From a bacterium (lineage in GTDB: Bacteria; Zhuqueibacterota; Zhuqueibacteria; Residuimicrobiales; Residuimicrobiaceae): DNA of 64,000 nt. The stretch covers positions 1 through 64,000 of the forward strand of contig JAKPUX010000056.1 in assembly GCA_029554865.1 (NCBI GenBank), read 5' to 3'. Below, in pieces: positions 3,396 through 56,991 of this stretch. The position numbers and the translations under genes are program-made. Numbering within the stretch: position 1 is the stretch's first letter; each line of letters begins with the position of its first letter. The notes below the pieces were generated by a model. It searched no databases, was not told the origin of the DNA, and saw only the letters and a list, made by a program, of their open reading frames with translations.

Positions 3396-3446
3396 AATTT
3401 TATCCCGTCACTAAAAAGACAACCTGATGGCGAAGGAACAGGGGTA

Positions 3447-3493: not shown

Positions 3494-3553
3494 TGGTTGC
3501 GATTCTCCCACAGTATCAGCGGATTGGTTAATGCCTCCGCTTCAGCCAGATCC

Positions 3554-6358: not shown

Positions 6359-6525
6359 TCCTGCCTCCTTTGGGTTAGCTTGATGATGCACATGGCTGGT
6401 AAGTATATGGGTGCAGCAATAATCTCTTCGGGAAAACGCTGTACTGCTTTACTGATGTGACGCCGCCTTGCGGGGATCGGCTCAGCTTTACAGGGGCGGC
6501 GTGATCATCAGGGTCAATTTGTTTG

Positions 6526-7626
6526 CTACCTGCCGGTCATCTCCAGTTCTGTGCCGGCGATATCGCTCCAGTCGTAGTAATGGAAGGTTTTGTTGTCCGA
6601 CATGGCTACGAAGAGACCGTGCGGGTAGGTCTGATTGAGGGCAACTGAGGTCACCTCGGAGCCGTCGCTCTCGCTGGTGGAGGTTTTGATCACCTTGACC
6701 AGGGTGTGCTGATGGGGCTGCCCGGGTTCGCCTTCGCGCTTGAAGATATGGAACTTGTTCGCTTGCTGATCGCTGACGAGGATATAGCCCCGTCCGCCGG
6801 GAAGGGTATAGATCGAGATGCCCTCGAGGTCCCCTGCAAAGCCCGTGCGGGCGAAGAAGGCGAGTTCGTTGTTTGCACCGGCTTGATCAGGGTCCGCAAG
6901 GTACTTGCGCACCCCGATCTGCTCGTCCGAATAATAGACGTAGCCCAGTTCATCATCCACGGCGATGGCTTCGATCTCCTTTTTGCCACTGTAGAGGCCG
7001 AATTCCCGCACCTTGGTCGCCTTGACCGTCCCGGAGCCGTCGTCCTCGAGCAAATACTGCCAGAGGTAGCGGCCGTCGGTGGGGCCGTCCTTGCGGCCGA
7101 CGATGGCGTAGATACGGCCGTCGGCGGGCCTTTTGTAGAGGGCGATGCCCATCGGATCACGCAGGGTTTCGCCCGCAAAGACCTCGATGCCGCCGCCGTC
7201 GACCGGCCGCATGTCTGGCAGGCTGAAGATGCGGATGCGGTTGAGCAACCGCTCGGTGGTGACAGCGATGTCGACTGGCCGGCCGCCGAGTATGAGGCCG
7301 TACTCGACATCGACATTATTGGGCCGCTGCAGGGGGCGCACGCACTTTTCCGGGATGATTTTGCCATTGAGATCAAAAACATAGAGGCCGCCGTTGGCCT
7401 CCTTGTCGGTGCCAATGACCAGGCTCTGCGCCGGGTCGCCGGGATGGATCCAGATGGCCGGATCGTCGGAATCGAACTGCACCGGCTCGGTCACGATCAC
7501 CGGTTTGAGGGGCTTGTCGGCGGAACAGAGTTTGCAGCGGGAACAATCGAGGGAGAAAAGGGAGAAGAGCAGCATGAGTGCTGCTAAAAAGTGGTAAAAA
7601 TGGGGGCGTCCGGATGTCACCTTCAT
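6526..7626 (-). CDS. Secreted beta-propeller phytase
   Basis: A 366-residue calcium-dependent phytase-like enzyme, predicted to remove phosphate from phytate (inositol hexakisphosphate) outside the cytoplasm. Family signs are the early DSDDPAIWIHPGDPAQS and IGTDKEANGGLYVFDLNGK, then RPNNVDVEYG, EIEAIAVDDELGYVYYSDE and LEGISIY, all typical of the six-bladed 3-phytase fold. The N-terminus has a hydrophobic export signal followed by CSRCKLC. The first of these cysteines might be a lipid site, but the residue before it is Asp, which is unusual. The start is at the ATG 8 bases after GGAGG; an ATG four codons upstream overlaps that ribosome-binding site. It sits between a PfkB kinase and a TonB receptor, in line with inositol catabolic genes, which gives the phytase an obvious purpose. 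Confidence 0.87.
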   Translation of the reverse strand: MKVTSGRPHFYHFLAALMLLFSLFSLDCSRCKLCSADKPLKPVIVTEPVQFDSDDPAIWIHPGDPAQSLVIGTDKEANGGLYVFDLNGKIIPEKCVRPLQRPNNVDVEYGLILGGRPVDIAVTTERLLNRIRIFSLPDMRPVDGGGIEVFAGETLRDPMGIALYKRPADGRIYAIVGRKDGPTDGRYLWQYLLEDDGSGTVKATKVREFGLYSGKKEIEAIAVDDELGYVYYSDEQIGVRKYLADPDQAGANNELAFFARTGFAGDLEGISIYTLPGGRGYILVSDQQANKFHIFKREGEPGQPHQHTLVKVIKTSTSESDGSEVTSVALNQTYPHGLFVAMSDNKTFHYYDWSDIAGTELEMTGR

Positions 7627-7644
7627 TCTATCCTCCAATGTCTT

Positions 7645-7673
7645 AAATTAGCACATATATTCATTTCCTGCAA
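7645..7673 (-). promoter_or_regulatory. Possible sigma70-type promoter of the phytase gene
   Basis: On the - strand TTGCAG is followed after 17 bases by TAATTT, ending about 19 bases upstream of the phytase start codon. The boxes are imperfect, so this is only suggestive of a promoter separate from the upstream genes. Confidence 0.35.
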
Positions 7674-7713
7674 ATTAATTCTTTGTTAAGAAAAACTTTC
7701 CTTTTCGGTGGAT

Positions 7714-7788
7714 GCGGCCTCTCAGGCCCCGCTCTGTGTCAGAAAGAACTTGTCTTCTCAGGGAATGGCGGCCTCTCAGGCCCCGCTC
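7714..7788. repeat. Pair of 21-base direct repeats with internal hairpin
   Basis: The sequence GCGGCCTCTCAGGCCCCGCTC occurs twice, at 7714-7734 and 7768-7788. Each copy contains the short palindrome GGCCT-CTC-AGGCC. About 30 bases before each copy are also partly alike, so this looks like a diverged 54-base tandem duplication. The second copy overlaps the last codons of the PfkB kinase gene. Confidence 0.75.
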
Positions 7789-8678
7789 CGGTTGTATTTA
7801 CGCGCGATTTTGGTCTCGACATCCGTGACGCTGCGCTTGATCGGGCCCTCAGCCTCCATCTTGAGGCTGGTCACTGCCGCGGCCCAGACCGTGGCCTCCG
7901 CAGGCGGGGCGGTCAGCCTTTTGCATACATAGGCGGCGATGCAGGTATCGCCGCGGCCGCTGCGGCCCACCAGGGGCTCGGGCAGGAAAGGCGCCTCAAA
8001 GCTCTCGCCTCCGGCCAGCACGAGCAGGCCGTCACGATGCGAAAGGACCACCTCCTTCGGCCCCAGGCCGGCAAGCAGACGCGCCGCCTTGTGGATATCC
8101 TCCTCGCCGGTCATGCTCTTCGCTTCCACCGCATCAGTCTTGAGGATGTCGAAATAGGGCAGCACTTCGCTCTTCGCCTCCCAGCTGTCGAACTCGAGCA
8201 CTCCCTCCCCGTTGATGATGCGCACAAAGCCCTGGGCATCAGCCGAGAGCAGGCCCTTCTTCCTGCGCAGGTAGCTGATCACATCCAGATCGACCTCGCC
8301 GCGGGCCGAGGCGTTGATGAGAAAAGCCCTCGCCTCGAGATCAGTGAACTGGTCGGGGGTGAAGGAGCCGGCGGTATGGGTGACCGAGAGGATGCGGTTG
8401 TCGACGTTGTCGGTGGGATAGTAGAGGCGCATGTCGGTGGACCAGGGGGTCCAGGTGGGGTAGGCGTCGACGCCGATGTCAGTGAGGGCGTCGACGACAT
8501 GGACGTCACTGCGGGCCAGGCGGGTCACTGCCGCGGTCCTCAGCCCCATCATCCGCGCCACGTGGGCGCCGTAATTGAATCCCCCGCCGTCGACCTGGCG
8601 GGTGCCGGTTTTGGAGATGATGGTGTCCTTGGTATAATTGCCGAGCAGGACGATGTCGTAGGGTCTGGTTTCGTTCAT
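7776..8678 (-). CDS. PfkB-family sugar/inositol kinase
   Basis: A 300-residue ribokinase-fold kinase. The N-terminal VDGGGFNYGAHVARMMGL is the substrate-binding glycine region. GRSGRGDTCIAAYV near residues 237-250 is the PfkB signature with the catalytic Asp (GxGD). The T. maritima inositol cluster also holds a PfkB kinase (TM0415), so an inositol or keto-sugar-acid substrate is plausible. It could alternatively play an IolC-like role. It lies between an organophosphate antiporter gene and the phytase gene on the same strand. The family is certain; the substrate is not. Confidence 0.82.
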   Translation of the reverse strand: MNETRPYDIVLLGNYTKDTIISKTGTRQVDGGGFNYGAHVARMMGLRTAAVTRLARSDVHVVDALTDIGVDAYPTWTPWSTDMRLYYPTDNVDNRILSVTHTAGSFTPDQFTDLEARAFLINASARGEVDLDVISYLRRKKGLLSADAQGFVRIINGEGVLEFDSWEAKSEVLPYFDILKTDAVEAKSMTGEEDIHKAARLLAGLGPKEVVLSHRDGLLVLAGGESFEAPFLPEPLVGRSGRGDTCIAAYVCKRLTAPPAEATVWAAAVTSLKMEAEGPIKRSVTDVETKIARKYNRSGA

Positions 8679-8700
8679 ACTGTTCTTTCCTGTGTAGTGT

Positions 8701-10053
8701 TCAATCTCTCATTTTCACCCGCCAGAGCAAGGCCGCCAGGATCAGGGAAGCGACCGAGCTGCCGAGCCAGAACCAGATGGCGCTGGAGAAATCATAATGG
8801 CGCACGCCGTCAACCATGGTGGTGCCCGCTTCGATCAGGCGGCCGCTGATCCGCTCCTGGATGGCGGCGCCGAGATAGCTGAAGACCCCGATAAAGCCCA
8901 TGGCCGCGCCCGCCGCTTTTTTGGGGGAGATATCGACGGCGAAGAGGCCGCCCAGGGCGGTGACCAGGCCGTTGATGGAGAAACCGTAGGCGAGAAAGGC
9001 AATGGTCAGCCAGACAGGATTGTTGCCGGGCATGAAAAAGATCACCAGCAGGGAGGCGATCTCCATCACGGCGCAGATCAGATTGACGGGCGGACGCCTC
9101 GCCTTGAAGAGCTTGTCGGAGATAAAGCCGTAGGCGGCGCAGCCGGCGATGCCGGCGACCGGATTCATCGCCAGCAGCCCCCCGGCCTGGAGATCGGAAA
9201 AGCCCCGCGCCTCCTGGAGAAAGAGCATGCCCCAGCTGTTCATGCCGTAGCGGGTCATATACATGGTGGCGCTGGCGAGGGCGAGAATCCAGATCGAGGG
9301 CATTTTCAGGATCGAGATCTGGGCCTGCCATGTGCTCTTCGCCGCCGCCGCGGCCGCCTGCGGCCCGGTGGCGAAATCATTGCGCCACTCGGCCACTGAG
9401 GGCAGCCCCAGGGTCTGCGGACGGTCCGAGACAAAGAGATAGGCGGCGACAGCGACCAGGACGCAGAGCAAACCCGGCCCGATGAATCCCGCCTGCCAGC
9501 CAAAAAAGGCGACCAGGGCCGCCGAACCGACAAAGGTCAGCCCCTCGCCGATGGAGTGGGCGGTGCTCCAGATGCCATAGTAGCGGCCGCGCTCGCGATT
9601 GCTGAACCAATGCGAAAGCGCGACTATACCCGCCGGCGACCCAAAGCCCTGGAACCAGCCGTTCAGGGCCCAGAGGGCGACCCAGACCCAGAGCAGGGTC
9701 GACCAGCCCATGGCGATATTGATCAGGGCGGACATGAGAATGCCGGTGGCGAGGAATTTCTTGACGTTGGCGTGGTCGGCGAGAAAACCGTTGACCAGCT
9801 TGCCAAAGGCATAGCCGTAAAAAATGCCTGATCCGATGAGGCCGAGCTGCTCGGCGGTGAAAATATTGCCGTCGATGAGGGGCTTTTTCACCACCGACAA
9901 CCCCAGCCGGCAGGTATAAGCGATGCCGTAGGTGAGGGTAATGGCGAGCATGACAGAGAGACGGCGGCGGCGGTAGAGCCGGTCGATCTCCGCCTGGTCC
10001 GTCAGGCGCGGGGCATCCGGTCCGGCGGCAAAAAAACGAAAGGGATTCCACAT
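8701..10053 (-). CDS. Organophosphate:phosphate antiporter (MFS, OPA family)
   Basis: A 450-residue inner-membrane transporter with about 12 hydrophobic segments. It matches the GlpT/UhpT family, whose members exchange an organic phosphate ester for inorganic phosphate. The diagnostic segment is WALNGWFQGFGSPAG followed by WFSNRERGRYYGIWSTAHSI, and the N-terminus has the usual YRRRR ahead of the first helix. The start has a GAGG element 12 bases upstream. Next to a phytase and inositol oxidation genes it could import an inositol phosphate in exchange for the phosphate released by phytase; that is inference. Hexose phosphate or glycerol phosphate are the standard alternatives. Confidence 0.85.
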   Translation of the reverse strand: MWNPFRFFAAGPDAPRLTDQAEIDRLYRRRRLSVMLAITLTYGIAYTCRLGLSVVKKPLIDGNIFTAEQLGLIGSGIFYGYAFGKLVNGFLADHANVKKFLATGILMSALINIAMGWSTLLWVWVALWALNGWFQGFGSPAGIVALSHWFSNRERGRYYGIWSTAHSIGEGLTFVGSAALVAFFGWQAGFIGPGLLCVLVAVAAYLFVSDRPQTLGLPSVAEWRNDFATGPQAAAAAAKSTWQAQISILKMPSIWILALASATMYMTRYGMNSWGMLFLQEARGFSDLQAGGLLAMNPVAGIAGCAAYGFISDKLFKARRPPVNLICAVMEIASLLVIFFMPGNNPVWLTIAFLAYGFSINGLVTALGGLFAVDISPKKAAGAAMGFIGVFSYLGAAIQERISGRLIEAGTTMVDGVRHYDFSSAIWFWLGSSVASLILAALLWRVKMRD

Positions 10054-10154
10054 GGGATGATATCCTCGACTAACTCATGAATGGACTTTACCCTCCCCCA
10101 TCCCGGTGCGGCCGGGCGCTCCACGCAGCGAGTCACCCGGCACAGACCGGCGGG

Positions 10155-11198
10155 TCAGGGCTTGAGGGTGATCTTCATCGCCTGCTTGGGCACATGGCTC
10201 AGGGTGGGGAGGTCCAGCCCCAGCTTGGCAAAGGCACTTCCACCCTGCTCCAGGGGGATAGTCTCGGTGAAGAAGGGGCCCATATCGATCTTTTTCTCCT
10301 GCAGGATCTTGATCGCCGGCAGCATGGTATTCTGGCCGATATAGGTGCCGAGGATCCTGACCGCCCGGCGGGTGATTTCGTAAGGGGTGATGGTCGCCTT
10401 GACGCTCGAGTCCATGCCGAAGGCGAGAACCTTGCCGCCGGGGGCGACATATTTCAGGGCGTTCTCGAGCTGGGTGCCGACGGCATCGATGACGATATCG
10501 AAGCCGTTGCCGCGAGTCCGCTCTTTGGCCATCTGCACCAGATCAGTCTGGTCAGGGTCATAGACCGGCACACCGAGCTGCCGGGCGACGCCGCGGCGGA
10601 AGGGGTCGATCTCGCTGACGGCCACCTGGGCGGCGATGTTTTTCGCCATACCGGTGAAAAGATAGCCGATCGGTCCGAAACCGAGGATGAGCACCGCATC
10701 CCAGGGCTGCATCTGCACGGTGTTCATGCCGTTGAGCACAGTGCCGAGGGTCTCGACCTGGGTGGCAACCATATTATCCAGAACATCAGGAAGCTTGAAA
10801 CAGACACTCTCCGGAGCGCGGCAGTACTCGGCATAGCCCCCGTTCTGAAAAATACCCAGGGTCTTCTCCTTGATGATTTCGCACTGGCTGCTCAGCCCCA
10901 TGCGGCAGAAATCGCACACCCCGCAGCGGGGGTTGTTGTCGACAGCGACGCGGTCGCCGGGCTTGACTGCAGTCACCGACTTGCCCACCTCCACCACCGT
11001 GCCGCAGAATTCATGGCCGAGGACGACCCCCTCCCTGTAGGCGTGCTTGCCTTCCATGATCTTGACATCCGAGCCGCAGATGCCGCAGGCCGCCACCTTG
11101 ACAATGACATCGTCGTGCTCCCGGACCTCCGGGATGGGGATCTCCTCAAGTTCGATGCAGCCCACCCTCTTGAAAACCAGCGCTTTCATCTTTGCCAT
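10155..11198 (-). CDS. Zinc-dependent polyol/sugar dehydrogenase (MDR family)
   Basis: A 347-residue medium-chain NAD(P)-dependent dehydrogenase. The catalytic zinc site shows as CGICGSD and GHEFCG, the structural zinc site as four Cys in NNPRCGVCDFCRMGLSSQC, and the Rossmann fold as ILGFGPIGYL. It resembles sorbitol, galactitol-phosphate and threonine dehydrogenases. The start chosen is the ATG of MAKMKALVF; longer frames lack family similarity upstream. It follows the ABC importer genes, and in this setting it might reduce or oxidise a sugar acid formed from inositol, for example tagaturonate; that role is a guess. Confidence 0.85.
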   Translation of the reverse strand: MAKMKALVFKRVGCIELEEIPIPEVREHDDVIVKVAACGICGSDVKIMEGKHAYREGVVLGHEFCGTVVEVGKSVTAVKPGDRVAVDNNPRCGVCDFCRMGLSSQCEIIKEKTLGIFQNGGYAEYCRAPESVCFKLPDVLDNMVATQVETLGTVLNGMNTVQMQPWDAVLILGFGPIGYLFTGMAKNIAAQVAVSEIDPFRRGVARQLGVPVYDPDQTDLVQMAKERTRGNGFDIVIDAVGTQLENALKYVAPGGKVLAFGMDSSVKATITPYEITRRAVRILGTYIGQNTMLPAIKILQEKKIDMGPFFTETIPLEQGGSAFAKLGLDLPTLSHVPKQAMKITLKP

Positions 11199-11254
11199 CT
11201 TTTTCTCGCTTTCCTTGAAGATAATATGAGTATTCGCGCCACGAGCGTAAAACA

Positions 11255-11371
11255 TCACTCTCACCAAGACACCAAGCCACAAAGAAATATATATTTAGAT
11301 CTTCTTTGCGCCTTTGCGGCTTTGCGAGAGACATTTCCTGTCTTTTCTTTGCGTCTCTGCGTCTCAGCGGG
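11255..11371. repeat. Intergenic palindromic repeat element
   Basis: A left arm of the type caccaagacaccaag followed by acaaagaa, an AT-rich centre (atatatattt), and a right arm of the type ctttgcgcctttgcggc. A second right-type copy (ctttgcgtctctgcgtctca) follows 10 bases later. The arms are imperfectly complementary and each is a short tandem of an 8-9 base unit. Elements of this wording occur between genes in many environmental bacteria. It lies between the dehydrogenase and the binding-protein genes. Confidence 0.6.
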
Positions 11372-11392
11372 AGGCCGCTGCTATGACTTATT

Positions 11393-12304
11393 CTACTTTC
11401 TCACCAGCTCGATCGGGACCGGGATGTAGGCCGGAATTTGCTCGCCCCGCATGAAGCGGGCGGCGTTTTCAATCGCCAGCCGGCCCATCTCGCGCGGATT
11501 CTGGGCGATCGAGGCCTCCATGCGGCCGGCGGCGATGGCCTCACGGGCATCCGTGATGGCGTCAAAGCCGATCACAAGGATATCCGCGCTGCGCCCCGCC
11601 GCAGCGATCGCCTCTACCGCCCCCAGGGCCATCATGTCGTTGCAGCCAAAGACCGCCTGGACATCGGGATGGGACTGGAGAATATTCTGAAAGACATTGT
11701 AGCCCTGATCCCGTTCCCAGTTGGCGGTCTGGGAGGCGACGATGCGGATCCCCGGCGCCTTGTCGATCGCGGCATGGAAGCCGCGCAGGCGAGAATCGCC
11801 GGTCTCATGGCCGGGGATGCCCTCGAGGATGGCTACCCGGCCGATTCCGCCCAGTTTTTCGATGATGCGCTCGCCGGCGATGCGGCCGCCGTCAAAATTG
11901 TCGGAGCCGATGAAGGTGGCCACTTTTCCACCGGCCTCGGCCAGGGCCGTCGAATCCACGCGCGTATCCAGGATCAGCACCGGGATGCCGGCCCGGTTGG
12001 CCTTGAGAATGGCCGGAATCACCTCGCGCGAACCGGCGGGGGTGAGGCAGATCGCCGCGACCTTGCGCTGGATGAGATTCTCGATGATCTGCATCTGCTT
12101 TTCGACATCCAGCTCGCGTTCAGCCGCCTGGACGATGAGCGGCAGCTGCAGGCGTTGAGCCGCCTCTTCGGCCCCAAGCTGCATATCCATGAAGAAGGGG
12201 TTGTTGAGGGTCTTCATGACCAGGGCCACCGCCGGGGCGGACTTGTCCTGGCTGCAGCCGATGCAAAGCCCGAGGAGGGCGAGTGACAGGATTGCTTTTT
12301 TCAT
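11393..12304 (-). CDS. Sugar ABC transporter substrate-binding lipoprotein
   Basis: A 303-residue periplasmic-binding protein of the RbsB type. The lipobox LCIGC (residues 13-17) predicts a lipid-anchored protein facing the periplasm. The ligand-binding fold starts with VALVMKTLNNPFF and contains ICLTPAGSREVIP, GSDNFDGGRIAGE and GCNDMMALGAVEA, all ribose-family signatures. AGGAG precedes the ATG. It forms a full CUT2-type importer with the permease and ATPase genes directly upstream. Since the next genes encode inositol oxidation, myo-inositol or a derivative is the likely cargo; CUT2 inositol importers are known in other bacteria. Confidence 0.9.
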   Translation of the reverse strand: MKKAILSLALLGLCIGCSQDKSAPAVALVMKTLNNPFFMDMQLGAEEAAQRLQLPLIVQAAERELDVEKQMQIIENLIQRKVAAICLTPAGSREVIPAILKANRAGIPVLILDTRVDSTALAEAGGKVATFIGSDNFDGGRIAGERIIEKLGGIGRVAILEGIPGHETGDSRLRGFHAAIDKAPGIRIVASQTANWERDQGYNVFQNILQSHPDVQAVFGCNDMMALGAVEAIAAAGRSADILVIGFDAITDAREAIAAGRMEASIAQNPREMGRLAIENAARFMRGEQIPAYIPVPIELVRK

Positions 12305-12319
12305 GGTCTTCTCCTGATT

Positions 12320-13267
12320 TCAGGATCGTCTTTTTTTCATCATCATGTCGAGGAGAACAGCGACGATGATCACCGCCCCGATCACCGTCTGCTGGACAAA
12401 CGAGGAGACGCCGAGAAGATTGAGTCCGTTGCGCAAAACCCCCATGATAAAGGCCCCGATCAGGGTGCCGAAGATCTGCCCCTCACCCCCGAGCAGGCTG
12501 GTGCCGCCGATCACAGTGGCGGCGATGGCGTCCAGCTCATAATTCATCCCGGCGATGGGCTGCGCCGAATTGAGGCGGGCGGTGAGCAGGATGGCCGCCA
12601 GGGCGCTGAGCAGCCCGGCGAGGCTGTAGACCAGGGTTTTGTGCAGTTTGACGTTCACGCCCGAAAGCAGGGTCGCCTCCTCGTTGCCGCCGATGGCATA
12701 GGTGTAGCGTCCCAACCGGGTCCGGCTGAGCACCAGATGGGCGATGAGATAGACCGCCGCCATGATCCAGACCGGGAGGGGGATGGCGAGAAACTCCCCG
12801 TTGGCGATCGCCCTGAAGCCGGGCGCAAAGCCCGAGACCGGCCGGCCGTCACTGAAGATGAGGGCGGCGCCGCGCGCGACGCTCATCATGCCGAGGGTGG
12901 CGATGAAAGGTGGCAATTTGCCGCGGGCGATGAGAAGACCGTTGGCGCTCCCGCACAGGGCGCCAACCACCAGGCAGAGGAGGAGGGCCAGCGGGACCGG
13001 CGCCCCCGCTTGCAGAGCACTGGCCATGACCACCCCCGAGAGGGCAAGGATGGAGCCCACCGAGAGGTCGATGCCGGCGCTGATGATGACAAAAGTCATA
13101 CCCGCAGCGATGATCGCATTGATGGCCGTCTGCTGGGCGATGTTGAGCCAGTTCGAGAGCGACATGAAATGGGGGGAGAGCGCCCAGAGGGCTGCCGAGA
13201 GCAGGATGAGGACGAACAGGGTGGTGAGTTGGCGTCCGTGCTGCAGGAAAAGGCTTTTTACACGCAC
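12320..13267 (-). CDS. Sugar ABC transporter permease (RbsC type)
   Basis: A 315-residue inner-membrane permease of the CUT2 family, with about 8-10 hydrophobic helices. Typical segments are SAGIDLSVGSILALSGVV, the conserved GKLPPFIATLGMMSVARG loop, and IAATVIGGTSLLGGEGQIFGT. The start is GTG, placed directly after the TGA of the upstream ATPase gene with no spacer, and GGGAGG lies inside the end of that gene. The pair is therefore translationally coupled. It would form the channel for the ligand brought by the binding lipoprotein. Confidence 0.92.
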   Translation of the reverse strand: MRVKSLFLQHGRQLTTLFVLILLSAALWALSPHFMSLSNWLNIAQQTAINAIIAAGMTFVIISAGIDLSVGSILALSGVVMASALQAGAPVPLALLLCLVVGALCGSANGLLIARGKLPPFIATLGMMSVARGAALIFSDGRPVSGFAPGFRAIANGEFLAIPLPVWIMAAVYLIAHLVLSRTRLGRYTYAIGGNEEATLLSGVNVKLHKTLVYSLAGLLSALAAILLTARLNSAQPIAGMNYELDAIAATVIGGTSLLGGEGQIFGTLIGAFIMGVLRNGLNLLGVSSFVQQTVIGAVIIVAVLLDMMMKKRRS

Positions 13268-14764
13268 TCAGTTGCCTCCCAAAGCGAGGTTCAAAATCTT
13301 TTGCTGGGTAGCCTCGGCGGCGGAGAGCTCCCCGGCGATGCGCCCCTGGCACATCACCAGCACCCGGTCGCTCATGCCGATGATTTCCGCCAGCTCGGAG
13401 GAGATCATCAGAATGGCGGCGCCGTCGGCCGCAAGCTTGTTCATGAGCTGGTAGATCTCCACCTTGGCCCCGACATCGATGCCGCGGGTGGGCTCGTCGA
13501 AAAGGAGGATTCGCGACTCGGAGCAGAGCCACTTGCTCATCACCACTTTCTGCTGGTTGCCCCCGCTCAGGTAACGGACCTGCTGCCCCAGGCCGGGGGT
13601 GCGGATGCGCAGCTTGTCGACGAAACCGGAGGCCGCGTTGCTCTCCCGCGTCCGGCTCACCCAACCCAGGCGCGAGAACCTGGCCAGACTGGCCAGGCAG
13701 ATATTCTCCCGGACCGCGAGATTGAGGACCAGTCCCTGGCCCTTGCGGTCCTCGGTGAGATAACCGATCCCCTGGTGGATGGCGTCACGGGGCGAGCCGA
13801 TGCGGACCGGCTTGCCCTTGATGAAGATGCGGCCGCCGTCGACGGGATCAGCCCCGAACAGGGCCCGCGCCAGTTCCGTGCGGCCGGAACCCAGCAGCCC
13901 GGCGATTCCCAGCACCTCGCCCCGGCGCAGGGTGAAGGAGATCTCCTCCAGCACGCCGCGACGGCTGAGCTTTTCCACCCGCAGGGCCTCTGCGCCCGGC
14001 TCGACCCGCACCTTGGGAAAATGCTCCTTGAGCTCGCGGTTAACCATGAGGCGGACCAGTTCCTCCCGGGAGGTGCCGGCGATTGGCCTGGTTTCGATGT
14101 GACGGCCGTCGCGCAGCACCGTGACCCGCTCCCCGATCTCAAAGATCTCCTCCATGCGGTGCGAGATGTAAATGACCGATACCCCCCGTTGTGTCAGGCG
14201 GCGGATCAGGGCGAAGAGCTCGCCGATCTCCTGCCCGGTCAAGGCCGAGGTGGGCTCATCCATGATGAGAATGCGGGCCTGGAGCGAAAGCGCCCGCGCC
14301 ACCTCCACCATCTGCTGCTGGGCTACGCTGAGCTCGCACACGCGCCTGCTGGCGTCGATCCCGGCATGGAGTTCGTCAAGCAGGGACTGGGCATCAGTGA
14401 CCACTCTTTTCTGATCGATGAATCCGGAGCGGCGCCGCGGCTCGCGGCCGAGAAAAATGTTCTCCGCTGCGGTGAGGGCGGGAATGAGATTGAGCTCCTG
14501 GTAGATGATGGCGATGCCCAGTTCCTGGGCCCGGCGCGGGGTTTCGATCCTCACCTCGACACCATCGAGCAGGATCTGCCCGCTGCTGCGCGGATTGGCG
14601 CCACTGAGGATCTTGACCAGGGTCGATTTTCCGGCGCCGTTTTCCCCAAGCAGCACATGGACCTCGCCCTGCATGAGATCGAAATGGACGTCATCGAGGG
14701 CCACAACACCGGGAAAAACCTGGCCGATGTGGTGCATCTCCAACACGGGCCGGCCGCTGATCAC
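13268..14764 (-). CDS. Sugar ABC transporter ATP-binding protein (RbsA type)
   Basis: A 498-residue protein with two fused ABC domains, as in RbsA/MglA. Domain 1 has Walker A GENGAGKS, signature LSVAQQQMVEVARAL and Walker B ILIMDEPTSAL. Domain 2 has the degenerate Walker A GLLGSGRTE, signature LSGGNQQKV and Walker B ILLFDEPTRGID. It energises the CUT2 importer. The start is a GTG that overlaps the TGA of the upstream epimerase gene (GTGA), with GGAGG at a good distance. Tight coupling to an inositol-pathway gene ties the importer to that pathway. Confidence 0.94.
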   Translation of the reverse strand: MISGRPVLEMHHIGQVFPGVVALDDVHFDLMQGEVHVLLGENGAGKSTLVKILSGANPRSSGQILLDGVEVRIETPRRAQELGIAIIYQELNLIPALTAAENIFLGREPRRRSGFIDQKRVVTDAQSLLDELHAGIDASRRVCELSVAQQQMVEVARALSLQARILIMDEPTSALTGQEIGELFALIRRLTQRGVSVIYISHRMEEIFEIGERVTVLRDGRHIETRPIAGTSREELVRLMVNRELKEHFPKVRVEPGAEALRVEKLSRRGVLEEISFTLRRGEVLGIAGLLGSGRTELARALFGADPVDGGRIFIKGKPVRIGSPRDAIHQGIGYLTEDRKGQGLVLNLAVRENICLASLARFSRLGWVSRTRESNAASGFVDKLRIRTPGLGQQVRYLSGGNQQKVVMSKWLCSESRILLFDEPTRGIDVGAKVEIYQLMNKLAADGAAILMISSELAEIIGMSDRVLVMCQGRIAGELSAAEATQQKILNLALGGN

Positions 14765-15567
14765 GTGAACCTCCGCATATGCACAATGGTGTTGCGGGCG
14801 GCGCTGTCGGCGTCCGGCAGGGGCAGGATCTCGGCGGAGAGCCAGCCGCGGTAGCCGGCGCGGTCGAGGGCCTCGATGACCGCGCCGAAGTCAATGTGGC
14901 CGGCGTCCGGGTGCCAGCGGTTGGAGTCGGCGATGTGAAAATGAAAAATCCGCTCCCCCGCCATGGCGATGCTGCGGGTCGGGGAGGGCTCTTCGATATT
15001 CATGTGAAAAGTGTCGAGCAGCAGCCCGACATTGTCCAGCTTGAGGCGGTCGAGAAAGCGCAGTCCGGCATCAACGGTGTTGATGAATTCGGTCTCGTAG
15101 CGGTTGATGGGCTCGACGGCGAATTTTTGCGCGGGATGGCCCAAGGCGATGTCCCGCATCGCCTCGAGGATGAGTTCCTCCGCCCGGGATTTGTCCTGGG
15201 CGCCGGCCGATTTGCCGCGGATGAGGCCGACGATGAGGAGGGCCCCCAGCTTCTCCGCCAGGGGCACATGGGCGTGCATGCGCGCCACTGCGCGGGCGCG
15301 CACGTTCCGGTCCGGATCGGTGAAAGAGAGCCCCTCCTCCCCGAAGGCCTGTCCGGTGCCGATGGCCGGCACCGGCAGCCCGGCGGCTTCGAGGGCCGAC
15401 AGCACCCGGCCCCGGTCGAGCAGACCGGGATCGCGGATGGCCAGTTCAACGCCGTCGTAGCCGAGGGCCTTGATCCGGCCCAGGTCCTCCTCCAGTCCGC
15501 CGCGGTAGACCATCGCCGCAAACGAGGCGGGCTGGAGCGAGAGGACGATGCTCAGTCTGCAGCGCAT
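14761..15567 (-). CDS. iolO: 5-keto-L-gluconate epimerase (IolO type)
   Basis: A 268-residue TIM-barrel protein of the xylose-isomerase/AP-endonuclease-2 superfamily. In T. maritima, IolO (TM0416) converts 5-keto-L-gluconate to D-tagaturonate. This protein shares the recognisable wording of that family: ELAIRDPGLLD, PAIGTGQAF, VEPINRYETEFINT, LLDTFHMNIEEP and HFHIADSNRWHPDAGHIDF, which supply the usual Glu, Asp, His and Glu metal ligands. Its ATG shares one base with the TGA of the upstream iolN-like gene and its own stop overlaps the ATPase start, so the operon is tightly packed. A generic sugar-phosphate isomerase is the fallback call. Confidence 0.82.
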   Translation of the reverse strand: MRCRLSIVLSLQPASFAAMVYRGGLEEDLGRIKALGYDGVELAIRDPGLLDRGRVLSALEAAGLPVPAIGTGQAFGEEGLSFTDPDRNVRARAVARMHAHVPLAEKLGALLIVGLIRGKSAGAQDKSRAEELILEAMRDIALGHPAQKFAVEPINRYETEFINTVDAGLRFLDRLKLDNVGLLLDTFHMNIEEPSPTRSIAMAGERIFHFHIADSNRWHPDAGHIDFGAVIEALDRAGYRGWLSAEILPLPDADSAARNTIVHMRRFT

Positions 15568-16661
15568 CAGAGCCCCATTTTCTGGATGCTGTAGATCGGC
15601 CGCCAGCCCGGCGAAAAGGGCTCCCTGAGATAGGGTTCCATCTCGGCGGCCGTGCGCATGGTGGTCTTTTCGACCGGCGGCAGCTGCCCCGGAGGAAAGG
15701 CGGCGAGGATCTCGTCGTTGATCAGGGTCAGATAGGAGAGGATGGCCGCGATCGTGCGTTTGGCCTTCTGTGCGCTGCCGATGGTCGGGCGTCCAACCAC
15801 CCCCTCGGGCACCGAGGCGAGCTCGATCGGGGAGTGGCCCTGGCCCTCGCTCCAGCGGCTCGGCCGGCCGAAGGGATCGACCGCCTTGTCGAAATGGCCG
15901 TCCGGCAAAAAGCCCTCCACTTTGGTCTCCTCGGCATAGTTCATCTCGACGAAGCGCGGCTCCAGCAGCAGCATCACGGAGGTCTCAGCCTCGTCGGCAT
16001 GGACAAAATCGTCATCCCATTCCCCGCCGCGCGCCTTGGTGCGGAAGAACTCGCGCACCGAACGGTGCCAGTCGAGGGTGCGGAAAATACCCGGCAGGTT
16101 CCAGCGTTTCTGCAGCTCCTGGATCGCCGCCTCCATCAGCCAGGAGTGGCCGTGGTTATTGACCAGGATCTGTTTGCGAAAGCCGTCGTTCCAGAGGCCG
16201 ACCATGACATCGATGAGGTTGCGCTTGACCACCTCATCCTCGAGATGGACGGTGCCGGGCATGCCGATGTGGTGGTGGGGATGGCCGCCGTAATTGAGGG
16301 GCGAAAAGACCAGATTGCAGGCCGCTCCCTTTTTGGCGGTGTAGCGGCGGACCCCCTCGAGGATCTGGGTCACCATAAAGGTGTCGAGGGCGGTGACGGT
16401 GTGGTCGCCGTGCTGCTCGGTGCAGCCGATGGGGATGAAGACAATGTCGTTCTTTTTACGGTTCTCCACCACCCGGTGGCGGATGGTGTTCTGGATATAG
16501 GTGCCGGGCTTGCCCAGCTCGGAGGGTGAAGGAATCTCGTACTCCTGCAGGATGTGGTCGATCTCCTCGGGAGAGGCCTCCCAGATCCGTTTTTTCATGC
16601 GGCCGACCGAGGTGTCTTCGAAGTTCAGATCGGGCCGGTTGGTTGTCAGCCATCCACTCAT
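15567..16661 (-). CDS. iolN: 3-dehydro-scyllo-inosose hydrolase (IolN, creatininase family)
   Basis: A 364-residue creatininase-family hydrolase. Metal-binding and active-site signs are IPIGCTEQHGDHTVTALDTF, NYGGHPHHHIGMPGT, VNNHGHSW and HADEAETS. In T. maritima, IolN (TM0413) opens the ring of the diketo-inositol made by IolM and yields 5-keto-L-gluconate. The protein is longer than ordinary creatininases because of an N-terminal extension (about 60 residues), as expected for the IolN type. It lies between the IolM-like and IolO-like genes, in pathway order. AGGATAG precedes the ATG. The family call is firm; the exact reaction rests on gene context. Confidence 0.8.
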   Translation of the reverse strand: MSGWLTTNRPDLNFEDTSVGRMKKRIWEASPEEIDHILQEYEIPSPSELGKPGTYIQNTIRHRVVENRKKNDIVFIPIGCTEQHGDHTVTALDTFMVTQILEGVRRYTAKKGAACNLVFSPLNYGGHPHHHIGMPGTVHLEDEVVKRNLIDVMVGLWNDGFRKQILVNNHGHSWLMEAAIQELQKRWNLPGIFRTLDWHRSVREFFRTKARGGEWDDDFVHADEAETSVMLLLEPRFVEMNYAEETKVEGFLPDGHFDKAVDPFGRPSRWSEGQGHSPIELASVPEGVVGRPTIGSAQKAKRTIAAILSYLTLINDEILAAFPPGQLPPVEKTTMRTAAEMEPYLREPFSPGWRPIYSIQKMGL

Positions 16662-16676
16662 GGTACTATCCTTTCG

Positions 16677-17861
16677 CTATCTTGGCAACACCGTGATTTT
16701 CACCTGCTCGCGGTTGGTCTGCAGCAGCTTGATATGCTCTGCCGTCTCCTCCAGGGTGATCTTTTTGGTGATCAATGGGGTCATGTCCATGCCGTCGGCC
16801 ATGGAGTTGATGACATTCGGGAAGATGCCGTGGCCGGAGTGGCCCTGGGCTCCGACGACGTTGGCGCGCCGCACCTGAAAGACCTCGCCGTTCATGATGA
16901 TGCGGTCGTCAGCGCGCGCCACCAGCACCACGGTGGCGTTTAGCTGTCGCCCCTCCCAGATGATCTTTTCGATGTCGGGCCAGACCACACTCGGCAGGCC
17001 GGTCGCCTCGAGGATGATCTTGACGCCCATCCCCTCGGTGATGTCGAGCACCGCGCCAGGGACGTCGCCCGCGGCCGGGTCGATGGCGTGAGTGGCGCCG
17101 AGGGCCAGGGCCATCTCCCGCCGCGACCTGGAGGGCTCGGAGATGATCACCTTGGCCGCCCCCGCCCGCCGCAGTTCTGCACAGGCGGCGATCCCGACCG
17201 GCCCGCTGCCCATGATCAACACGCTTTCGCCCGGCAGCACCCCGCCGCCGCGCACGATGACCGCGTTGTAGGCGACCGAGGAGGGCTCGACCAGGCTGCC
17301 GAGCAGAAACATCTTTTCCTCGCCGTAGATCGGCCGGAAGGCCTCGATGCTCCAGAGATAGCGGGCATCCATTCGGATGTATCTGGCATAGGCGCCGTCG
17401 ATCGAAAAACCGATCTCCTGCAGCCGCTCGCAGTGGTTGGGCAGGCCGTCGGCGCAGGGCCGGCACTGCGCACACCACATCATCTCCTCCGCGCAGACCG
17501 CCTCGCCGGGCAGAAAACGTTTGCCTGTCCGCTTGTTAAAGGCCTCGGGACCGGCCTCGGCCACCACGCCGGAAAACTCGTGGCCGAGGGTGCAGGGAAA
17601 GGCAGTCAGCCCGGGATAAAAGATGTAGCCCTGCTCGTCCGACTGCAGCATGTGGACGTCGCTGCCGCAGATGCCGCAGGCCTTGACCTCGATCAGCACC
17701 TCCGTCGGTCCGGGCACCGGCACCTCCTTCTCCACCATCTCGATGCGGGGGTTGCACCAGACCTTGCTGCCAAGATAGCTCAGCTTGCCCTCGATATCCT
17801 TGGCTCCCAATTGAAAGCCCGGCCTGGGTTTCCAGTCGGCAAAAAGCGTGACGGCTTTCAT
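16677..17861 (-). CDS. iolM: scyllo-Inosose 3-dehydrogenase (IolM type)
   Basis: A 394-residue zinc-dependent MDR dehydrogenase. It has the catalytic-site pair CGICGSDVHML and GHEFSGVV, a cysteine cluster for structural zinc (CAEEMMWCAQCRPCADG and following), and the nucleotide fold IMGSGPVGIAACAE. It is about 40 residues longer than standard MDR enzymes, mainly from the N-terminal extension with GAKDIEGKLSYLGSKVW. That length fits IolM (TM0412) of T. maritima, which oxidises 2-keto-myo-inositol with NAD. GGAAAAGGT precedes the ATG. Neighbours in pathway order (IolG upstream, IolN downstream) support the assignment. Confidence 0.8.
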   Translation of the reverse strand: MKAVTLFADWKPRPGFQLGAKDIEGKLSYLGSKVWCNPRIEMVEKEVPVPGPTEVLIEVKACGICGSDVHMLQSDEQGYIFYPGLTAFPCTLGHEFSGVVAEAGPEAFNKRTGKRFLPGEAVCAEEMMWCAQCRPCADGLPNHCERLQEIGFSIDGAYARYIRMDARYLWSIEAFRPIYGEEKMFLLGSLVEPSSVAYNAVIVRGGGVLPGESVLIMGSGPVGIAACAELRRAGAAKVIISEPSRSRREMALALGATHAIDPAAGDVPGAVLDITEGMGVKIILEATGLPSVVWPDIEKIIWEGRQLNATVVLVARADDRIIMNGEVFQVRRANVVGAQGHSGHGIFPNVINSMADGMDMTPLITKKITLEETAEHIKLLQTNREQVKITVLPR

Positions 17862-17972
17862 ACCTTTTCCTTTCCATGATAAAACCGGGCGGACAAGATC
17901 AACCGGCCCGCCGGCTGGTACAATTCACTGCAATGGGTGCACTCCGGTATTATCGCGACCCCGGCGGGCGCC

Positions 17973-18986
17973 CTAGAAATCCTTCACCCGGGCGATCTGG
18001 TCATGGTGCAGCGACCAGGTCGCCGCCGTGCCTATCTGCAGGGCCTTGATGCCATCCTCCAGCTTGATCATGGGCTCGAGCCCCGCGCTGAGGTTGGTTA
18101 AAAAATCATTGAGCTGGGTGACATACGCCTCGCCGAAACGCTCCGGGAAGTAGGGAACCACATCGTGGGTCACCCCCGCCTTGGTCATCACCTGGATGGG
18201 GGTGTCACGCAGGTAGCCGGCCATCACCGTCCCTTGTGAGCCCAGCACCTCGGCGCGGATGTCATAGCCATAGACCCCGTTGCGGCTGATGTCGATCTCG
18301 CCCAGGGCGCCGCTCTCGAAGCGCAGGGCCATGATGACATTGTCGGTATCGTTGACCTCTTTGATCTCGGGATAGGCCAGCACCGTGCCCATGGAATAGA
18401 CGGTGGCGACTTCACCCATGTACCAGCGGGCGATGTCGATGTCGTGGATGGCCATATCGAGGATCTGGCCGCCGCTGTTCTCGGGTTTGAGATAGTCGAG
18501 GCTGGGCCGGTAGGGATCGCGCGATGAGCCGCGGAAGGTGACCGGAATGCCAACGACGCCTTCATCGATTTTCTGTTTGGCGGCCGCAAAGCCCTTGTCG
18601 AAACGGCGCATGTAGCCCATCTGGAAAAAAATCCCCGCTTTTTCCACGGCGCGTTCGATCTCGCGGGCGTCCGCAAGGTTGAGGGTGAGGGGCTTTTCAC
18701 TGAACACCGCCTTGCCGGCCGCCGCCGCATCGATGATGATCTCCTTGTGGCTCTGGGTGGTGGCGGTCACGATCACCGCCTCCACCTCCGGATCGTTATT
18801 AAGGTCGTGATGGTTGTCGTACCACCTGGCCTCCCCATACTCCTCCGCGGCCGTGGAGGCACGCTCGGGGATGATATCCGCATAAGCCACCACCCGCGCC
18901 TGCGGCACGCGCTGGGCGAGAAATCCGGCGTACATCTTTCCCAGGCGGCCGACGCCAACCAGGCCGACATTGATTTTCTTTTTCAT
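17973..18986 (-). CDS. iolG: myo-Inositol 2-dehydrogenase (Gfo/Idh/MocA family)
   Basis: A 337-residue NAD-dependent oxidoreductase, predicted to oxidise myo-inositol to scyllo-inosose, the entry step. The N-terminal NAD fold shows as GLVGVGRLGKMYAGF, the Lys motif as SEKPLTLN, and the catalytic Asp/His pair as GGQILDMAIHDIDIARW. The length is normal for IolG. The start is the ATG after GAAGGAAGCC, ten codons inside the longest frame. It is the first enzyme gene after the regulator. Other members of this large family act on different sugars, so the substrate depends on context. Confidence 0.85.
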   Translation of the reverse strand: MKKKINVGLVGVGRLGKMYAGFLAQRVPQARVVAYADIIPERASTAAEEYGEARWYDNHHDLNNDPEVEAVIVTATTQSHKEIIIDAAAAGKAVFSEKPLTLNLADAREIERAVEKAGIFFQMGYMRRFDKGFAAAKQKIDEGVVGIPVTFRGSSRDPYRPSLDYLKPENSGGQILDMAIHDIDIARWYMGEVATVYSMGTVLAYPEIKEVNDTDNVIMALRFESGALGEIDISRNGVYGYDIRAEVLGSQGTVMAGYLRDTPIQVMTKAGVTHDVVPYFPERFGEAYVTQLNDFLTNLSAGLEPMIKLEDGIKALQIGTAATWSLHHDQIARVKDF

Positions 18987-19012
18987 GGCTTCCTTCGTGA
19001 AATGGTTAATCG

Positions 19013-20122
19013 TCAAGACTGCAGGCCGAGGGCTTGCACAGACCGCCGCTCAACCAGATAGGATTTCAATACCACCCGCTGCGGCTCACCCCCCTCACCC
19101 TCGATGCGGCGGAGCAGCAGCTTGATGCTCTCCTGCCCCATCTCGTAGATGGGCTGATGCACTGTCGTCAGCTCCATCGGGTGAGAGTTGGAGAAGGCGA
19201 GGTCGTCGTAGCCCGCCAGGGAGAGCTCGGCGGGTACGGCAATGCCCATCTCCGTAGCGGCATTATAGAGAATATAGGCGATAGGATCGTTGCCGGCGAA
19301 GAGGGCGGTATAGTGATGGCGCTGAGCCAGAATGATGCGCGCATACTGCTGATAATGTTTGTCTATGAAACGCTCCTCGAGGGTGAAGAGGAGGCCGGGA
19401 TCGACCACAAGACTGTGGTCGAGCATGGCCTGCTTGTAGCCGGCGAGGCGGGACCGTTCGCTGCTGAAGGAGGTGCTCAGAGTGATGGCGATGCGCCGGT
19501 GGCCCATGCGGATAAGATAGGCAGTCAGGTCATAAGCCCCCTGAAAATTATCGGTGGTAACGATGTCGTGGTCATGCTCCGGGATCTCGCGGTCGAACAG
19601 GACCACCGGGATGTTCTTCTGATGAAAGGTCTCGATGAGCTGCAGGTTCTTCTCCGCCGGCGCCGCTGTGGGCATGAAGATCAGGCCGTTGATCTCCTGG
19701 CGGATGAGCTGGCTGGCGTGGAACTCGGCGCGGCTGTAGAGGTCATCGGTGTTGCAGAGAATGACGCTGTAGTTATGGCGCGCGGCCTCATCACCGATGC
19801 CGCGCAGAAACTCGGGGGCGTAGCCGCTGCGGATGTCGTGCACCAGCACCCCGATGATACGGTTCCTGCCCGCCGCTGCCGCCGTCTGCGAGAGGACAAA
19901 GGTGCCAAACCGGCGCTTGCGGTAAAGGTAGCCCATGTTGACCAGATTCTGGATGGCCTGGCGGATGGTGGCGCGGGCCATGCCGGTCTGGCGGGCGAGC
20001 TCCTCTTCGGTGGGAATCTTGTCGTTGGGCTTGAAAAAGCCCCCGTCGATCTGACCGATCAGCCAGGTCTGCAGCTGGAAGTATTGCGGCACAGGACTGT
20101 TGCGGTCGATGATCACAGGCAT
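19013..20122 (-). CDS. GntR-type DNA-binding / LacI-type sensor repressor
   Basis: A 369-residue transcription factor with the AraR-like domain fusion. Residues about 5-75 form a GntR winged helix (PVPQYFQLQTWLIGQI, KIPTEEELARQTGMARAT, RRFGTFVL). Residues about 90-360 form a LacI/ribose-binding-like sensor (GVLVHDIRSGYAPEFLRGI, GHRRIAITLS, LSLAGYDDLAFSN). It most likely represses the inositol block, which it heads, and is released by a pathway sugar. Its own promoter overlaps a 16-base palindrome, fitting autorepression. An alternative TTG start ten codons upstream exists; neither has a strong ribosome-binding site. Confidence 0.88.
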   Translation of the reverse strand: MPVIIDRNSPVPQYFQLQTWLIGQIDGGFFKPNDKIPTEEELARQTGMARATIRQAIQNLVNMGYLYRKRRFGTFVLSQTAAAAGRNRIIGVLVHDIRSGYAPEFLRGIGDEAARHNYSVILCNTDDLYSRAEFHASQLIRQEINGLIFMPTAAPAEKNLQLIETFHQKNIPVVLFDREIPEHDHDIVTTDNFQGAYDLTAYLIRMGHRRIAITLSTSFSSERSRLAGYKQAMLDHSLVVDPGLLFTLEERFIDKHYQQYARIILAQRHHYTALFAGNDPIAYILYNAATEMGIAVPAELSLAGYDDLAFSNSHPMELTTVHQPIYEMGQESIKLLLRRIEGEGGEPQRVVLKSYLVERRSVQALGLQS

Positions 20123-20204
20123 CTCAAAGATGGGGCCGGCCGGTGCGCTCAACAGTGCAGGAGTTTCTTGCCCCGGTCAGTGGGGTTTGGGCCAACTTCG
20201 ATTC

Positions 20205-20220
20205 AATTGTCTATACAATT
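20205..20220 (-). promoter_or_regulatory. Candidate operator for the GntR/LacI regulator
   Basis: The palindrome AATTGT-CTAT-ACAATT overlaps the -10 box and expected transcription start of the operon promoter. The TTGT-N4-ACAA layout is typical of GntR and AraR-type operators, and a further ACAAT half-site follows at once. Binding here would block RNA polymerase. Confidence 0.65.
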
Positions 20221-20246
20221 ATACAATAAAAAGGAATTTGAGTCAA
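20218..20246 (-). promoter_or_regulatory. Strong sigma70-type promoter of the inositol operon
   Basis: On the - strand TTGACT (20241-20246) is followed after exactly 17 bases by a perfect TATAAT (20218-20223). Transcription would begin near 20211 and leave a leader of about 90 bases before the regulator ATG. It is the best promoter match in the window. Confidence 0.8.
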
Positions 20247-20276
20247 GGCTTTTTTGCCCAGCGCTGCATTTTTTTC

Positions 20277-20305
20277 TTGTTCCCTCACCTGGAATTCTGT
20301 ATACT
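20277..20305 (+). promoter_or_regulatory. Divergent sigma70-type promoter of the epimerase gene
   Basis: TTGTTC, 17 bases, then TATACT on the + strand, about 70 bases before the ATG of the SDR39U1-type gene. It lies about 60 bases from the operator of the divergent operon, so the two could influence each other. Confidence 0.5.
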
Positions 20306-20373
20306 TGATCAATATAGCCGGCGGCGGCAGGCAGGACAGCTGGAGCGGAACACACAAGAGGGGAGAGCGAACG

Positions 20374-21285
20374 ATGAAAATAGCCATCACGGGGGCAACT
20401 GGCCTGGTGGGCGCGGGATTGGTCCGCCATCTGACCCGGCAGGGCCACGAGATCCATCCCCTGGTGCGGCGGCCGCCTCTGGCAGCGGCGCACGAAATCT
20501 TCTGGGATCCCCAGAAGGATGAAATCGATCATGCTGCACTGGAGGGAATGGATGCCGTCATCCATCTCGCCGGTGAAAATCTCTCCGGCTACTGGAGCGC
20601 GGCCAAGAAGGAACGCATCATGGCCAGCCGCAGTCGCGGGACCCGCCTGCTCAGCCAGGCCCTGGCCGTCCTCCATCGCAAACCGGGGCTCCTCATCAGC
20701 GCCTCGGCGATCGGCTTTTACGGCGATCGCGGCGCGGAGGCGCTGGACGAATTCTCGGCACGCGGCGAGGGTTTTCTGGCTGACGTCTGCATGGAGTGGG
20801 AGAACGCAGCCGACCCGGCCCGCGAGGCGGGCATCCGCGTCCTCCACAGCCGCTTCGGCATCATCCTCGACCCTGGTGGAGGGGCCCTGGCCAGGCTGCT
20901 GCCCCTCCTGCACCTGGGACTGGGGGGCAGGCTCGGCAGCGGACGTCAGTACTGGAGCTGGATCACCATGCAGGACGTCCACAGCGCCCTGGCCTTCTGC
21001 CTGGATCATCCCGACCTCGAAGGCGCGGTCAATTTCACCGCCCCCGGCGCGGTCACCAATGCCGAATTTACACGGGCTGCAGCGCGATTCCTCCACCGCC
21101 CCGCTTTTTTCGCTGTGCCGGCCTTCGCCCTGCGCCTGGTGATGGGCGAGATGGCCCAGGAGATGCTCCTCAGCAGCACGCGGGCCGAGCCCAAAAAACT
21201 CCTCGCCAGCGGATTCCGCTTCGATCACACCGATCTCCGCGCCGCCTTCGCCGCCGTTCTCGGCCCCAACCTGCCAGCCCGTTAA
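20374..21285 (+). CDS. TIGR01777-family NAD-dependent epimerase (YfcH/SDR39U1)
   Basis: A 303-residue extended short-chain dehydrogenase-like protein. The nucleotide-binding start is MKIAITGATGLVGAGLVRHL. The family-specific DAVIHLAGENL, RSRGTRLLSQAL, SASAIGFYGDRG, EWENAADPAREAG and the C-terminal SSTRAEPKKLLASGFRF are all present. The substrate of this family is not well established. The start follows GGGGAGAG. It diverges from the inositol operon and ends at a strong terminator, so it looks like a single-gene unit. Confidence 0.9.
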   Translation: MKIAITGATGLVGAGLVRHLTRQGHEIHPLVRRPPLAAAHEIFWDPQKDEIDHAALEGMDAVIHLAGENLSGYWSAAKKERIMASRSRGTRLLSQALAVLHRKPGLLISASAIGFYGDRGAEALDEFSARGEGFLADVCMEWENAADPAREAGIRVLHSRFGIILDPGGGALARLLPLLHLGLGGRLGSGRQYWSWITMQDVHSALAFCLDHPDLEGAVNFTAPGAVTNAEFTRAAARFLHRPAFFAVPAFALRLVMGEMAQEMLLSSTRAEPKKLLASGFRFDHTDLRAAFAAVLGPNLPAR

Positions 21286-21308
21286 CAAAGACAGCGGCGG
21301 ATGCAATA

Positions 21309-21336
21309 AAAAAGCCCGGTTTGCACCGGGCTTTTT
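21309..21336. terminator. Bidirectional rho-independent terminator
   Basis: Hairpin GCCCGGT / ACCGGGC with a short loop, flanked by A5 and T5. It separates the epimerase gene from the convergent TonB receptor gene that stops 24 bases away, and can serve both. Confidence 0.9.
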
Positions 21337-21359
21337 CATTTCAAGCTGAGTTGAGGAGG

Positions 21360-27750: not shown

Positions 27751-27771
27751 TCCTTCACCCTGCGGAGAGCC

Positions 27772-50802: not shown

Positions 50803-56991
<6,189 letters not shown>

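Follow-up and report, generated by a model that had tools for sequence, protein, structure and literature searches.

A probable phytate and inositol-phosphate utilization regulon built around Thermotoga-type IolGMNO genes in a KSB1-phylum bacterium

The 64,000-nt stretch of DNA considered here (the window) belongs to the genome of an uncultured bacterium of the phylum KSB1/Zhuqueibacterota (G000; 94% complete, 408 contigs). From 20152 down to 3554, all on the minus strand, it carries genes for a regulator, the inositol enzymes IolG, IolM, IolN, and IolO, a CUT2 ABC importer, a zinc dehydrogenase (adh2), an organophosphate antiporter, a PfkB kinase, a beta-propeller phytase, and a TonB-dependent receptor. 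We consider it probable that this block is a regulon for the use of phytate, a plant-seed phosphate, and inositol phosphates that feeds the rare IolGMNO route, a reading built on observed gene identities, signature residues, synteny, independent phytase recruitment, and a conserved operator. From the regulator gene to the gene of the importer's binding protein, adjacent genes overlap or are almost contiguous, the one exception being a gap of 111 bases 5′ of iolM; the gaps that follow are, in order, 110, 101, 22, 137, and 134 bases, the last two preceding the phytase and the TonB receptor. An earlier sequence-only reading had named the genes from iolG to the phytase, and all are present by family scores where it placed them on the minus strand; it had missed the regulator, which lies within its span (19013–20152), and the TonB receptor downstream.

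In the mechanism we propose, for which all substrates, transport directions, the kinase direction, repression, and the inducer are deduced from sequence, the TonB receptor would carry phytate (or Ca-phytate or lower inositol phosphates) across the outer membrane, and the phytase, outside the inner membrane, would strip its phosphates. Free inositol would be taken up by the CUT2 importer, and leftover inositol monophosphates (InsP) would come in by the GlpT-type antiporter against outgoing inorganic phosphate (Pi). Inside, an enzyme of the TM0415 type would interconvert InsP and inositol with pyrophosphate (PPi) and Pi, the useful catabolic direction being InsP + Pi → inositol + PPi. IolG, IolM, IolN, and IolO would convert inositol to D-tagaturonate, to be taken on by a separate uronate locus (UxaE, a mannonate-type SDR, and a PfkB like 2-keto-3-deoxygluconate (KDG) kinase), and the GntR/LacI regulator would control the block through TTGTMTAKACAA.

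Families were assigned from profile scores against NCBIfam equivalog or Pfam cut-offs. IolM, scyllo-inosose 3-dehydrogenase (16677–17861), scores 487.7 bits with NF041097 (cut-off 450) and matches PDB entry 3ip1 at E=2e-172; IolN, a 3-dehydro-scyllo-inosose hydrolase of the creatininase family (15567–16661) whose metal-ligand-type motifs are conserved among relatives, scores 307.9 bits with NF041098 (cut-off 245); and IolO, 5-keto-L-gluconate epimerase (14761–15567), scores 308.1 bits with NF041099 (cut-off 300). The inositol 2-dehydrogenase IolG (17973–19016) lies just under its cut-off (TIGR04380, 336.6 bits against 355). With IolM, IolN, and IolO each above a curated equivalog cut-off and clustered with IolG, their Thermotoga-type identity, first proposed from the letters alone, is borne out, and by these models none of the three falls outside that type. 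It is conceivable that these homologues act on another sugar, for example in an L-glucose or L-galactose route through 5-keto-L-gluconate, as Luteolibacter LG18 metabolizes L-glucose with a PPi-using KDG kinase and with LguG, an IolO homologue (PMC12632266). The described Luteolibacter route, however, has no IolG, IolM, or IolN, whereas here all four Iol proteins score above or near equivalog cut-offs alongside a TM0415-type kinase, and we regard this alternative as highly improbable.

The genes for IolG, IolM, IolN, IolO, and a TM0415-type kinase are clustered both here and in Thermotoga maritima (TM0411–TM0416), with UxaE elsewhere in the genome; the T. maritima regulon is not reported to include a phytase, a TonB receptor, or a GlpT-type antiporter. 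The regulator there is the ROK-family IolR (PMC3750489), whereas here it is of the GntR/LacI type. The classical iol pathway of Bacillus and Salmonella also starts with IolG, but here IolN opens the ring after a second oxidation by IolM, and no IolB, IolC, IolD, or IolE was found in the genes of the block that were scanned. For its catabolic core the block uses the known T. maritima route; the front end lies outside that described regulon. The sequence-only reading knew of no described system that joins a phytase to IolGMNO, and among open-licence papers we likewise found no description of a phytase joined to IolMNO or of a phytase–iol gene cluster. Neither IolN nor Thermotoga is mentioned in a large survey of inositol utilization or in a review on inositol metabolism in the gut, and a KSB1 genome paper is silent on both phytase and inositol.

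The phytase (6526–7638, start probably the ATG at 7626) has an N-terminal signal/lipoprotein-type segment and scores 165.5 bits with PF02333 (cut-off 21). Conserved acidic and basic residues align with those of the Bacillus phytase 1cvm (E=6e-35), and the Ca/phosphate-site residues of the PF02333 fold are present. An AlphaFold model (pLDDT 88.7) shares the fold of the Bacillus beta-propeller phytase (1poo, 3amr), matching 1poo with a TM score of 0.77. By family, residues, and predicted fold, we assign the protein as a beta-propeller phytase that is predicted to hydrolyze phytate. It differs from the Bacillus enzyme in being only ~26% identical to it, in adjoining a TonB receptor, and in a lipoprotein-type N terminus found in most of its relatives. 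The TonB-dependent outer-membrane receptor (3554–6391; TIGR01782, 545 bits) is encoded directly 3′ of the phytase, and the two adjoin in genomes G002, G005, G069, G011, and G003 (at a contig end in the last) and in loci L071 and L073.

That the phytase belongs with the inositol genes is suggested by a census of 82 KSB1-phylum genomes and 80 named loci. IolN occurs in 15/82 genomes, phytase in 27/82, and both in 10 (Fisher P=0.003). The co-occurrence check suggested with the sequence-only reading, a phytase within 20 kb of IolN, was run in this phylum: 6/15 IolN genomes (G000, G002, G005, G069, G015, and G026) have a phytase that close on the same contig, 17.8 kb away in G015. This is an excess over the ~0.12 expected if phytase genes are placed at random, a coarse null model that takes no account of contig ends (Poisson P ~4e-9; P ~8e-6 when the cases are reduced to four independent families). 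The order iolGMNO-(ABC)-adh2-MFS-pfkB-phytase/TonB receptor is kept in the same-family relatives G002 and G005 and in G069, the last of another class, with no ABC importer inside the block and two MFS copies. In G011, the same order spans a contig break (L039 ends, and L128 begins, in the antiporter), and parts of it are found again in many more genomes. Phytase is thus present in related loci, and beyond the phylum as well. In a Bacteroidales metagenome-assembled genome (MAG), L071, the order is TonB receptor-phytase-iolM-iolN-iolO, and in a Neomarinimicrobiota MAG, L073, TonB receptor-phytase-phytase is divergent from gntR-iolGMNO-adh2-antiporter. Because the phytases of L071 and L073 form a fully supported clade apart from those of KSB1, phytase was recruited to iol genes more than once.

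Several antiporter loci without phytase (L051, L061, L062, and L067) have secreted calcineurin-type phosphoesterases in its place. These adjoin pfkB in L051, L061, and L067 (two copies in L067, with a third between iolN and iolO), stand 5′ of adh2-antiporter in L062, and lie beside pfkB at the contig start in L056. Their best profile match is to purple acid phosphatases (E=2e-8), with GpdQ-type phosphodiesterases close behind, and a medium-confidence model (pLDDT 78) agrees with purple acid phosphatase, with some likeness to the GpdQ fold. Among the named loci, an outside phosphatase is found in 8/12 with the antiporter and 3/68 without it (Fisher P=2e-6, kinship ignored; P=0.006 inside the window's own IolN clade), and the contigs of the four antiporter loci lacking one break off within the antiporter or shortly beyond it. 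The likeness to the glycerophosphodiesterase GpdQ raises the alternative that the natural substrate is another inositol phosphate, such as glycerophosphoinositol or lower inositol phosphates from phosphoinositides, with the phytase and the purple acid phosphatase-like enzymes serving as broad phosphatases; T. maritima reportedly has the pathway together with an importer that binds inositol phosphate, but with no phytase in its regulon. Beta-propeller phytases are, however, phytate enzymes by family, the conserved residues are present here, and unrelated phytases were recruited repeatedly, so we find this alternative unlikely.

The kinase (7776–8678), of the PfkB/ribokinase family, has the structures of TM0415 as its best PDB matches and only close solved relatives. 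TM0415 is a PPi-dependent inositol kinase for which five signature residues were named (Nagata et al. 2018, PMC5931981), and all five (K171, F221, R229, R232, and M266), including the RXGRGD motif, are kept in the window kinase, as they are in the antiporter-linked relatives of its subtype apart from one F-to-W change in L061. The acceptor residues D11, Q141, and R145 are shared too, at 36% identity overall. What had been called simply a PfkB kinase keeps that family name, but by the five signature residues it is not a generic kinase: the window PfkB is a TM0415 orthologue and a predicted PPi-dependent inositol kinase. The possibility that it is a KDG kinase was set aside, as the TM0415 structures are its sole close PDB relatives and a KDG-kinase-like PfkB occurs in the UxaE locus. 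The acceptor pocket at positions 76/78/89/116 reads M-L-L-S in the window kinase and I-N-S-L in TM0415. The substitutions at 78, 89, and 116 (L, L, S) are those of homologue No. 49 (Levilinea), the nearest assayed relative by pocket residues, which makes three monophosphates other than inositol 1-phosphate (Ins(1)P) from inositol and PPi and whose true acceptor, in the authors' view, is something else (PMC5931981).

Kinase and antiporter genes adjoin in the window, G002, G005, G069, G011, and L051, and are separated by one gene in L061. In G015 they form a separate divergent two-gene unit, and in G004 and G001 they are near neighbors away from iolN. At L145:7601-10864 (G004), ~90 kb from iolN, a TM0415-type kinase, a DUF6454 protein, and a GlpT-type antiporter stand together, and the DUF6454 protein may be a further partner of the pair. 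The window antiporter (8701–10053), of the GlpT/UhpT family of organophosphate:phosphate antiporters (also described as MFS, GlpT/UhpC/PgtP), scores 283 bits with TIGR00881 and 247 with glpT and matches PDB entry 1pw4 at E=3e-58. It shares R45, K80, H165, and R269 with GlpT, but it scores under the cut-off of every substrate-assigned NCBIfam equivalog, making it a family-level relative only, and it differs from the known antiporters in being paired with an inositol kinase. From this pairing, it most plausibly brings inositol phosphate in against Pi. The sequence-only reading had phosphate leaving through this protein, and that part would stand; mere phosphate export is less plausible than import of inositol phosphate in exchange.

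If InsP made outside the cell is exchanged for Pi, the kinase may run backwards, InsP + Pi → inositol + PPi, a new idea under which antiporter and kinase would form an energy-conserving entry module in which the last phosphate is removed by phosphorolysis rather than hydrolysis. If hydrolysis is assumed to yield −9 to −14 kJ/mol for InsP and −19 to −23 kJ/mol for PPi, then at assumed concentrations of 1 mM InsP, 10 mM Pi, 0.1 mM inositol, and 0.01 mM PPi, the reverse reaction comes to −9 to −18 kJ/mol, a figure that speaks to plausibility only. Fragments of an H+-pyrophosphatase are present in the source genome. We offer this module tentatively, as possible but less likely than not. Within the same regulon, and for this module only, the kinase could instead run forward, with PPi phosphorylating incoming inositol (for trapping or for phospholipid or osmolyte supply) and the antiporter carrying glycerol-3-phosphate or another organophosphate. 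TM0415 was assayed in that direction, in which it converted inositol and PPi to Ins(1)P (PMC5931981). The window antiporter, moreover, is most like GlpT. Because enzymes of the IolG family act on free inositol, forward flux would compete with catabolism, and the antiporter-kinase pairing in G015 and in G004 and G001 points to a common organophosphate substrate. We take the forward kinase to be a real possibility that falls short of probable.

The importer is encoded by genes for an ATPase (13268–14764; RbsA/XylG/AraG-like, 578 bits), a permease (12320–13267; RbsC-like, 340 bits), and a substrate-binding lipoprotein (11393–12304) that is allose/ribose-binding-like and, lower in its list of matches, also matches PDB entry 4irx (E=2e-30), which we take to be the Caulobacter inositol-binding protein. 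The T. maritima importer InoEFGK, reportedly found by Rodionova and colleagues in 2013 to bind inositol phosphate, is presumably of the CUT1 type, going by its name. The sequence-only reading had leaned on that ligand; it cannot be assumed for the CUT2 (ribose/allose-like) importer found here.

Regulation of the block is suggested by a GntR-LacI (AraR-type) regulator (19013–20152, start probably the in-frame ATG at ~20122; PF00392 and PF13377), whose orthologues stand first in the iol operon of relatives. Upstream on the same strand lie the block's single strong promoter, TTGACT-17-TATAAT (20218–20246; 11/12 match), the best promoter-like site in 3400–20400, and an operator, TTGTATAGACAA (20207–20218), which shares one base with the −10 box. 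The operator motif TTGTNTANACAA has one exact match within the window. The operator is found just 5′ of gntR orthologues in ~25 loci, 5′ of adh2-antiporter(-pfkB) in L061 (exact) and L062 (one mismatch), and 5′ of TonB receptor-phytase in L073 (one mismatch). We interpret the conserved TTGTMTAKACAA as a putative GntR/LacI site controlling the block. The functional link proposed earlier between the phytase and the IolGMNO route is supported, being conserved, independently recruited, and operator-linked in at least one relative. An open reading frame at 20203–21339 (minus) has no family match and was taken as a shadow of the plus-strand epimerase gene at 20254–21285. GlcD-type FAD oxidases occur beside iol clusters at L067:1638-5084, with an electron transfer flavoprotein gene alongside, L070:4907-6487, L033:804-2453, and L062:15373-18234, those of L067 and L070 behind an exact TTGTATAGACAA; a hydroxyacid dehydrogenase may be a member of the regulon.

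Beyond IolO, the zinc MDR dehydrogenase adh2 (10155–11282, start probably ~11198; PF08240/PF00107; IolM-like at 193.7 bits, below the cut-off of 450) often lies directly 3′ of iolO in relatives, and its location makes 5-keto-L-gluconate or tagaturonate a possible substrate. The source genome encodes the tagaturonate epimerase UxaE (179 bits; C89:74851-75987), a profile with a match in T. maritima only among 14 control genomes, with UxaC, a mannonate-type SDR, Gnd, and a KDG-kinase-like PfkB as neighbors. The gene order at this locus (C89; L142:6388-13647), LacI-UxaC-UxaE-SDR-Gnd-PfkB, resembles the T. maritima uronate genes but lacks a dehydratase.

Several observations weigh against a regulon that runs from phytate through IolGMNO. 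A search of the source genome for mannonate/altronate dehydratase (UxuA, UxaA) found none, leaving a gap before KDG, and the ManD model reached only 20 bits there; these absences are weak in an assembly of 408 contigs and 94% completeness, and the gene for the step to KDG was possibly lost in assembly. The source genome has an ordinary inositol monophosphatase gene, a simpler alternative with which the kinase might not need to run in reverse. Members of the antiporter subfamily are present in KSB1 genomes that lack IolN as well, which favors the forward-kinase alternative, and the protein may carry some other organophosphate; the notion of an antiporter restricted to iol genomes was rejected, as close homologues stand beside unrelated genes in IolN-free genomes. 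The IolN loci of G004, G039, and G068 have no phytase nearby. Finally, the window has no operator or strong promoter immediately 5′ of the phytase, which leaves co-regulation of this gene there dependent on co-transcription, by read-through over gaps of 101–137 bases. This absence, and the gaps before the phytase and the TonB receptor, would fit a phosphate-scavenging pair that merely neighbors an inositol operon, with carbon and phosphate uptake separate. Such TonB receptor-phytase pairs occur away from iol genes in G046 and G006, and the G004 phytase has no iol linkage. However, the joining of phytase to iol genes independently in several lineages and in excess over chance, the secreted phosphatases of other kinds that occupy this position in relatives, and the iol-type operator before TonB receptor-phytase in L073 all argue against mere neighbors, and we judge a scavenging pair quite unlikely.

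Elsewhere in the window, a UbiA prenyltransferase is followed by a tocopherol-cyclase-like protein (26665–28773, plus). An 884-aa protein with a weak cytochrome bd subunit I-like part and several c-type heme domains (33844–36498, minus) is encoded near a normal cydAB pair (30110–32481), and a 2072-aa open frame (50803–57021, minus) lies opposite a 992-aa open frame (52528–55506).

Inositol does not support growth of T. maritima, whose IolR responded to neither inositol nor inositol phosphate (PMC3750489), observations that raise the questions of what IolGMNO naturally acts on and what TM0415 truly does. The arrangement kept in relatives of the window suggests a purpose for the route. If the proposed entry module is true, it would explain the poor Km of TM0415 for inositol, the regio-promiscuous pocket variant, and the role of the T. 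maritima cluster. With a phytase or substitute phosphatase, a receptor, an antiporter, and a PPi-dependent kinase ahead of IolGMNO, both the substrate of the route and the role of TM0415 become directly testable, and the regulon may be a way for uncultured sediment and ocean bacteria to use phytate as a source of carbon plus phosphate.

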